Part shown: positions 1 to 1,748 of the stretch, in pieces
Layout: each line of letters opens with the position of its first letter
Numbering within the stretch: the first letter of the stretch is position 1
From: Desulfurivibrio sp.
Lineage (GTDB): Bacteria; Desulfobacterota; Desulfobulbia; Desulfobulbales; Desulfurivibrionaceae
Reading direction: 5' to 3'
Assembly (NCBI GenBank): GCA_013791995.1
Contig: VMSS01000130.1
Coordinates: 1 to 36,970 of the forward strand
Length of the DNA stretch: 36,970 bases
Program-made: the position numbers and the translations under genes
The notes under the pieces: model-generated
Seen by the model: only the letters and a program-made list of their open reading frames with translations
What the model was told of the DNA's origin: nothing
Databases searched by the model: none

Positions 1-1167
1 GGAAATCCTGCCGAACTTGGGAGGGGTCACAATTTCAAATTTCAGGGGATCGCCATTTTCGTCCGTACCGGCAAGCTCAATGGACAAGGCCTCATTGGGC
101 TTTGTCATACGCCAGCGCGATTCGCTGGCCACCGGCGGCGCATTGGGCGGCGGAGCTGCAGGTTCGGCAACAACCGGCGGTATCCCCTCCATCCCAGCAA
201 CCTGCGTCTCCTGAGCGGGCGGCACGACGGGGACCGGCATCTCGCCTTTCTTGTTTTTCATGAAGTAATACCCCCCGCCACCGGCCAGCAGGATGAGGCA
301 AAACGCTGCAACAGCCATGTTTTTTTTCTTTCCGGCTTTCGTCGGTGGGGCAAAGGGGTGATCGGTGCCCGAAGCAGAGGGCTGTTCCCGGCTATTGTCC
401 ATTGTGGCCTCCGCTAGAAAATCCGGCACATCCGAAGCAGGAGCGGCAGTGGCAAAAATATCTTCTTCGCCCAACCCTCCCTGCGACGCTGTCCCACCAG
501 CATTTGTTGCTTCATCGGGGATATCGGGCAGGTCGCCAAAATCAAACTCATCATCATCAAACCCGCCATCATCCGGCAAACCAAAATTATCTTCTCCAGA
601 GGCGGTAGCCCCTGCTTTTCCGCTTTCGTTCTCAGCCACTTCGGCAAAAGTCACCGTTTCCGGACCAAATGACTCCTCTCCGTCCATATTGGAAAAAAGC
701 TGGTCAACGTCATCCTTGCTGGGAGCACCAAGACCATCGGCCACTACTGATTCGCCGGAACTCTTTTCTGCTCCCGCGCTGGCGAAAAGACCATCGATAT
801 CCGACTGGTCCAGGTCAAAATCGTCAGTAGCCGGGGACGCAGCCGCTGCTGGCGCTTCCCCGCCGCCAAGCAGGGAATCGATGTCAGACTGATCCAACTC
901 GGAAAATCCTTCGCCGCCTGCACCGGCGGAAACAGGCGCGGCCGCATCGCCGCCCCCAAAAAGGGCGTCAATATCGGATTGATCCAACTCACCTGCATCA
1001 TCATCGCCTGGTGTCGGTTCACTGGGAGCCGCCGTACCGCCACCGAGCAGGGAGTCGATGTCGGACTGGTCCAGTTCACCCGGAACTTCTTCCGGAGCCG
1101 CGGGCTTGTCTTCCGCAAGATCGGTAAGCCAGTCGTCTATTTCAAGGCCTGATTTTTCTTCTGCCAT
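1..1167 (-). CDS. Single-pass membrane protein with tandem FliM-N-terminus-like LDQSDIDxLLGGG motifs in its cytoplasmic part and a probable Ig/cadherin-like (Big_9-type) extracytoplasmic region; C-terminus beyond window edge
   Basis: Reverse-strand reading from ATG at 1165-1167 stays open to the window edge: MAEEKSGLEIDDWLTDLAEDKPAAPEEVPGELDQSDIDSLLGGG...ELDQSDIDALFGGG...ELDQSDIDSLLGGG...LDQSDIDGLF...KKKNMAVAAFCLILLAGGGGYYFMKNKKG...ENGDPLKFEIVTPPKFGRI. Absent from the ORF track because no stop lies within the window. Confidence 0.85.
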   Translation of the reverse strand, partial: MAEEKSGLEIDDWLTDLAEDKPAAPEEVPGELDQSDIDSLLGGGTAAPSEPTPGDDDAGELDQSDIDALFGGGDAAAPVSAGAGGEGFSELDQSDIDSLLGGGEAPAAAASPATDDFDLDQSDIDGLFASAGAEKSSGESVVADGLGAPSKDDVDQLFSNMDGEESFGPETVTFAEVAENESGKAGATASGEDNFGLPDDGGFDDDEFDFGDLPDIPDEATNAGGTASQGGLGEEDIFATAAPASDVPDFLAEATMDNSREQPSASGTDHPFAPPTKAGKKKNMAVAAFCLILLAGGGGYYFMKNKKGEMPVPVVPPAQETQVAGMEGIPPVVAEPAAPPPNAPPVASESRWRMTKPNEALSIELAGTDENGDPLKFEIVTPPKFGRIS

Positions 1168-1202: not shown

Positions 1203-1748
1203 TTACTGCATATATACATAACTATGGAGCGCCCGATAAATGGGTTCCGACATCTCAACATTCACCACGTAGGAGCGACGCTCGCCCCGGGTATTCACCG
1301 CTATAATATGAATCCGCAGATACCCGTCCACTTCCTGGAGAATTCCGGAAACCCGCTGTTCATTCTCGCCTGGTGCTGCTGACCGCCACACGGCCAGCGA
1401 CTCGTTGCTGATCACCGCGGCCATTTGCTCGGCCAGGGTCGCGCCAAGCAGGGAAACCCTTTGCCTGGTTGAAAATTCGCTGAGAACAATAAACGGCTCG
1501 ATGGTCACCGGCTCGACCGCAAAAAAACCGTGCATCTGCTCCATTGCGTCACTGCCAACCATGGCCACCAAGCCGGTGAGCGACGTGTAGTTTCTCTGCT
1601 GACTGATCACCCCGTCGCCTGTCCCACCCCGACCATCCTCCTCTTTTTCCACGGCCAAGGACCCGGTTGCCCAAAAAACGCAGAGCAGAACAAGCAGTAT
1701 CGCGGGCGTCGGAATACCAATTTTTTTGACAGCTCCAGATATCGTCAT
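1203..1748 (-). CDS. Secreted FlgO-like protein (N-terminal signal sequence)
   Basis: 181-aa ORF; hydrophobic N-terminus; central FIVLSEFSTRQRVSLLGATLAEQMAAVISNE resembles FlgO-domain proteins; same direction as two further FlgO-like genes. Confidence 0.7.
   Translation of the reverse strand: MTISGAVKKIGIPTPAILLVLLCVFWATGSLAVEKEEDGRGGTGDGVISQQRNYTSLTGLVAMVGSDAMEQMHGFFAVEPVTIEPFIVLSEFSTRQRVSLLGATLAEQMAAVISNESLAVWRSAAPGENEQRVSGILQEVDGYLRIHIIAVNTRGERRSYVVNVEMSEPIYRALHSYVYMQ

Follow-up and report, generated by a model that had tools for sequence, protein, structure and literature searches.

A membrane protein family of Desulfurivibrio and its relatives with tandem FliM-like motifs, a probable multivalent docking scaffold for CheY~P

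We analyzed a 36,970-nucleotide stretch of DNA from Desulfurivibrio sp. (the window) and identified at its edge a gene for a membrane protein that carries four FliM-N-like motifs and a degenerate fifth one in tandem. The protein is probably a membrane-anchored multivalent docking scaffold for CheY~P and a likely flagellar accessory, with CheY binding, location and direction of effect being inferred.

In the textbook picture of the motor, each FliM subunit offers CheY~P a single peptide, and the C-terminal helix of CheZ binds CheY. Residues 8-15 of E. coli FliM (Q-A-E-I-D-A-L-L) form a helix in the complex with CheY, in which D12 makes a salt bridge to CheY K119 (PMC7012829). CheY-P binds at the EIDALL motif (PMC9126983), and phosphorylation of CheY increases its affinity for the FliM peptide 20-fold (PMC7355467). 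In Caulobacter FliM (peptide ILNQDEIDSLLG), replacement of I-D by W-A abolishes the two-hybrid interaction with the CheY-like CleA (PMC5677366).

Results

Layout of the window protein

The features of the window protein and its upstream neighbors are collected in Table 1. The ORF has an ATG start and remains open to the contig end, with window position 1 at the first base of contig C55. On contig C42 (L003:3-1391) there is a second copy with 90% identity over 587 bases, and the assembly thus seems to contain two strain versions. This copy provides the missing C-terminal half, 462 aa up to the stop codon. Recovery of the full gene, which the earlier note had advised, was therefore achieved in part: the remaining half is visible in the C42 copy, while the window ORF itself is cut by the contig end. 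The two pieces were left unjoined, and full-length homologues of about 590-810 aa were used in their place.

Table 1. Features of the motif-array gene and its operon, in window coordinates
Feature	Position	Strand	Remarks
Motif-array membrane protein ORF	1..1167	-	389 aa, 3' end cut by contig edge
Start of periplasmic part, tandem cadherin/Ig-like beta domains	about 1..144	-	
Single transmembrane helix	about 259..318	-	KKK directly before
Degenerate motif 5, KDDVDQLFSN	688..717	-	weaker; helix 153-161 in orthologue model
FliM-N-like motif 4, LDQSDIDGLF	784..813	-	sequence; helix in orthologue model
FliM-N-like motif 3, LDQSDIDSLL	868..897	-	sequence; helix in orthologue model
FliM-N-like motif 2, LDQSDIDALF	958..987	-	sequence; helix in orthologue model
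FliM-N-like motif 1, LDQSDIDSLL	1045..1074	-	sequence; helix at equivalent place in orthologue model
Conserved N-terminal DDWLxDL segment	1117..1137	-	resembles DDWAAAL of FliN, same genomes
181-aa envelope protein, LpoB-like predicted fold	1203..1748	-	directly upstream of motif gene
FlgO-domain protein, 252 aa	1763..2521	-	Pfam PF17680, E=9e-26
FlgO-domain protein, 265 aa	2594..3391	-	Pfam PF17680, E=1e-35

The acidic tail that bears the motifs has a net charge of -64 over 275 residues, with acidic, Gly/Ala-rich linkers between the motifs. It is inferred to be cytoplasmic, since no signal peptide precedes the transmembrane (TM) helix and lysines lie in front of it. In a full-length homologue the cadherin/Ig-like periplasmic region spans about 310 aa. 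The tandem FliM-N-like motifs of the earlier note are present, with coordinates right to within a few bases, and the KKK, TM helix and cadherin-like segment were all located after them as it had described.

In Pfam searches, the window ORF matched neither the FliM domain (PF02154), the genome's FliM being encoded elsewhere, nor the CheZ domain (PF04344). The TM helix is followed by cadherin-type beta domains instead of a FliL domain (PF03748). A search of PDB sequences with the family alignment A1 returned only weak matches, to MmpL5.

The AlphaFold model of a same-genus orthologue, run with 19 sequences, predicts a mostly disordered tail (pLDDT below 50) interrupted by short helices of 8-9 residues at 34-41, 62-69, 93-100, 123-131 and 153-161, one per motif. 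These are followed by a TM helix at 282-306 and by beta domains with pLDDT near 90. Foldseek matched the periplasmic part to cadherin repeats (E near 1e-13) with low TM-scores, so only the domain type is assigned.

Conservation of the motif array

The window motifs match the FliM peptide residue by residue in the register of E. coli residues 8-15, and the four window copies meet, at the level of sequence only, the pattern of the CheY-binding N-terminal FliM peptide, Q-x-[DE]-[IV]-D-x-L-L. Both the I and the D that are needed in Caulobacter FliM are kept. The combination of a predicted helix with a conserved I-D pair is that of the CheY-P-binding peptide class (FliM-N / CheZ-C). In several homologues the degenerate fifth motif reads SQEEMDxLF or SQDDVDxLF.

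Among the four window copies, 51 of the 60 compared residues are identical and 33 of those 51 are written with different codons; therefore, the array is not a fresh DNA duplication. In the window protein and 11 same-genus orthologues, amino-acid identity is 96.1% in motif columns versus 65.3% in linker columns, and, among identical residues, synonymous codon differences make up a similar share (0.37 in motifs, 0.45 in linkers). The motifs are under purifying selection, because they are conserved far above the linkers at similar synonymous divergence. Using a lenient expression, which itself imposed the Q, we counted 87 motif copies in 21 family sequences, with 0 to 8 per protein. Thus the copy number does vary among homologues, a point the earlier note had proposed to check, and the loss of motif conservation that it held would refute its reading is not observed.

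A motif pattern scan of the window's own genome yielded 14 matches versus 7 in the reversed control. Five of the 14 are the four motifs of the window protein and FliM. The other nine, one copy each and all readable in open frames, were judged to be chance matches without further test: one lies in a 475-aa ORF that, judging by its beginning, resembles DnaB (L155, EEQDDIDGLLDD), a second in a short XseB-like ORF (L153), and seven in frames 81-222 aa in length, of which five overlap longer ORFs.

FliM and CheY of the same genome

The N-terminus of the genome's own FliM is ILSQDEVDALLKG. The best own CheY (contig C119) shares 58% identity with E. coli CheY and retains D57, T87, A90, I95, Y106, V108, K109, T112, K119 and K122, with K92 replaced by Q; the residues that dock FliM are kept. 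Its gene is flanked on one side by a fliA-like gene and on the other by the gene for a second FliL-like protein, which has 297 aa and no motifs (region L223:605-1887); in Desulfobacterales, this slot is taken by the FliL-array gene described below. The family's N-terminal DDWLxDL and the FliN N-terminus (L004, L238-L247) may represent a second shared short motif, and EDWESAF in the FliL-like protein adjoining cheY (L223:605-1495) also resembles it.

Operon and envelope neighbors

The motif gene forms an operon with the genes for two FlgO-domain proteins and the LpoB-like protein, and is not adjacent to the main flagellar cluster. A FlgO domain (PF17680) is present in the products of two upstream genes and absent from the motif protein. 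FlgO is a component of the H-ring in Vibrio (PMC6375700). The 181-aa gene lies upstream in 27 of the 29 family loci examined; the exceptions are one contig end and the genome G022, where this gene was not found. In most genomes with the family there are about four FlgO matches, and in G000, G007, G019 and G022 one of these lies within about 17 kb of FliM on the same contig.

Taxonomic distribution and co-occurrence with FliM

Of the order's 194 genomes, 69 were read as having a family member, at E below 1e-50 in the alignment search. By their FliM, the same genomes divide into three classes: canonical (67, at E below 1e-50 and including three with fragments assigned by hand), divergent (74) and without a match (53). 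The family is present in 64 of the 67 canonical-FliM genomes, in none of the 74 divergent-FliM genomes and in 5 of the 53 FliM-less ones (odds ratio 521, Fisher p 3e-41); these five genomes are 73-93% complete. The p value is uncorrected for shared ancestry: FliM classes follow the families of the order, and the joint presence is largely a matter of clade, which means that single genomes cannot be counted as independent evidence. CheA was found in 165 of the 194 genomes. The earlier note regarded occurrence mainly in genomes lacking CheY or FliM partners as a refutation; on the contrary, the family occurs almost only together with FliM and CheA.

In a sample of 297 genomes of the phylum, full-length members are confined to the window's own order. 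In the streamlined 1.7-Mb genome G022 of the same family (L033), FliM is kept and the motifs are eroded. The divergent FliM proteins of the order's other families (L127, L128, L130) start with EPILxKxxIxxLLxxIKSG, an altered CheY-binding peptide.

Several weaker candidates were set aside. Weak matches to alignment A1 at model positions 330-440, seen in many genomes, cover only the cadherin-like domains and were not counted. Window-query matches in G046, G075, G125 and G143 lie beside FliM, cover only the linker/TM part, and were judged to be FliL and left out. A weak match on contig C175 has no motif.

Tandem arrays on other proteins

We scanned 84,980 species genomes for pairs of Q-x-D-I-D-x-L motifs with a spacing of about 25-35 residues, a pattern that limits what the scan can find. 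It returned 53 stretches versus an estimated chance expectation of 0.0005-0.017, which were sorted by ORF reading and by Pfam, PDB and neighbor searches. The window family accounts for 10 of the 53; outside it, most tandem-motif proteins are flagellar or chemotaxis proteins.

The largest group (28/53) consists of TM proteins with a FliL-like C-terminal domain, several of these stretches being cut by the stretch end or representing two pieces of one gene. These FliL paralogues have 3 to 12 motif copies, one TM helix and a FliL-like domain, and are found in flagellar operons of Desulfobacterales. Their assignment rests on a profile match to the solved FliL 9hmf (E=1e-7) and on an hhalign match with FliL (94%); of 21 members, 6 are recognized as FliL by Pfam. 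For 19 of these stretches the flanking genes include FliA and FlhG homologues, and in G373 the array gene follows fliL-M-N-O-P-Q-R-flhB-A-F-G-fliA by ORF reading. The FliL-like stretch L186 (Nitrospinota) gave no convincing Pfam match.

Four stretches are of the CheZ type, three by Pfam (L163, L183, L187) and one by likeness to L163 (L205). They are alphaproteobacterial CheZ proteins, with the arrays at the C-terminus in L163, L183 and L187, and in the Azospirillum loci L163 and L205 a cheY homologue adjoins the array-bearing CheZ. One stretch encodes a planctomycete FliN. Another four encode DUF2497 proteins, L193 being confirmed and the others assigned by likeness. These PopZ-like proteins (L190, L193, L200, L201), from Magnetospirillum and other Rhodospirillales, have two Q-D-D-I-D-A-L-F motifs, and such pairs could bring CheY to a polar organizer.

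The remaining six stretches, four further planctomycete, one Desulfovibrio and one Lentisphaera, have no assigned domain. The Planctomycetota and Lentisphaera proteins (L172, L188, L204, L209, L192) carry 3 to 10 copies without a confident Pfam domain. Repeated QDDLDALLGEL or QDDIDDLLAGL units occur in Desulfovibrio-type proteins (L122/L144 in G207, and L171, which has a weak Pfam match to the CheZ C-terminal part). Proteins of about 205 aa in G269 (L123/L145) and G234 (L124/L146) have two LDQxDIDSLF motifs, no obvious TM helix and a short C-terminal part of unidentified type. The motif may not be only flagellar, since pairs are also found on DUF2497 and on unannotated planctomycete and Lentisphaera proteins.

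Discussion

We propose that the window protein would be an inner-membrane scaffold anchored by its one TM helix, with a disordered acidic cytoplasmic tail that displays four or five copies of the FliM/CheZ CheY~P-binding peptide. Close to the flagellar motor, the tail would most likely gather CheY~P, or receivers of the CheY type, at the membrane, and the cadherin-like stalk in the periplasm would probably act with the FlgO-like and LpoB-like envelope proteins that the operon also encodes. The array might tune the CheY~P that reaches FliM, either as a local reservoir or as a competitor; our data cannot choose between the two. Topology, CheY binding, motor location and reservoir or competitor action are all inferred, as there are no binding, expression or localization data. 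The proposal is weakened by the place of the operon apart from the main flagellar cluster, by the clade-bound co-occurrence, by G022 with its retained FliM and eroded motifs, and by the motif pairs on DUF2497 and unannotated proteins. CheY-type receivers are the most likely partner because CheZ, the CheY~P phosphatase, carries such arrays. The multivalent docking scaffold suggested by the earlier note is thus supported, and between the partners it named, an inferred binding of CheY is indicated rather than of a FliM/FliN-type protein, because arrays are also found on CheZ, FliL-paralogue and FliN proteins.

The operon admits a different use of the same docking, in which CheY~P on the tail alters the periplasmic FlgO/LpoB-like module, as an inside-to-outside switch of the envelope, the flagellar ring or surface behavior, and does not tune FliM. 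We consider this unlikely. The conserved operon with two FlgO-domain proteins and the LpoB-like protein is in its favor, as are the non-motor targets of CheY in Shewanella (PMC7666153) and the place of FlgO in the Vibrio H-ring (PMC6375700); however, there is no evidence of coupling between tail and periplasmic part, and the arrays on FliL, CheZ and FliN have other partners, thus an array need not drive such an output. Less likely again is that the motifs bind another flagellar partner (a C-ring, export or stator protein) as an assembly tether, their likeness to the CheY site reflecting shared helix chemistry. While the resemblance of DDWLxDL to the FliN N-terminus of the same genomes and the FliL-paralogue arrays within the flagellar operon would fit a tether, the same arrays are borne at the C-terminus by CheZ, whose known partner is CheY, and the published partner of the FliM peptide is CheY or a CheY-like protein (PMC9126983, PMC5677366).

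It is very doubtful that the family belongs to a GltJ-like machine of the envelope or gliding type that is not flagellar and whose input would be CheY-like or of the small-GTPase type. GltJ of the Myxococcus gliding machinery has a cytoplasmic disordered tail, one TM helix and a periplasmic part, a similar layout, and the NCBIfam GltJ model (NF033761) gives a weak match over the linker and TM helix. However, this match (18.3 bits) is far below the cut-off of 450 and falls in low-complexity sequence, and the family co-occurs strongly with canonical FliM. Scarcely tenable is an ordinary low-complexity repeat expansion without function, to which the acidic, Gly/Ala-rich linkers and the variable copy number might point: the copies differ in codons and not in residues, the same arrays recur on unrelated motility proteins, and the identity of 96% in motifs versus 65% in linkers already provides the purifying selection that would refute it.

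The CheY-docking peptide itself is already known, whereas for its tandem arrays on membrane proteins we found no description; the literature search, which left most subscription papers outside, returned no account of tandem or multivalent CheY-docking motifs. It is quite possible, though still short of probable, that membrane-anchored multivalent CheY~P arrays represent an undescribed layer of flagellar control, a reservoir, buffer or condensate at the motor, which has arisen several times by moving the FliM/CheZ peptide onto unrelated proteins (the cadherin-type protein, a FliL paralogue, CheZ, FliN, DUF2497) and multiplying it there. If many bacteria have such arrays, proteins missing from current chemotaxis models, as far as we found, would determine the amount of free CheY~P, the sensitivity of switching and its location. 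Peptides offer an easy way to test the arrays, from which a clear prediction for motor bias follows.

Among known systems, GltJ resembles the window protein in layout only, without a significant sequence match. The Vibrio H-ring protein FlgO is related through the two FlgO-domain proteins encoded in the operon, and its domain is absent from the motif protein. The FliM N-terminal peptide shares with the array the core Q-x-[DE]-[IV]-D-x-L-[LF], an equal predicted helix length, and the I and D known to matter; in FliM, however, it is a single N-terminal copy before the middle and SPOA domains, whereas the window protein is a TM protein that lacks a FliM domain and has four to five copies along its disordered tail. 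CheZ has the same motif type, in tandem copies in some Alphaproteobacteria; in contrast to CheZ, the window protein is membrane-anchored and has no CheZ domain. The FliL-paralogue arrays share the layout of tail and TM helix with the window protein, whose periplasmic part is cadherin-like instead.
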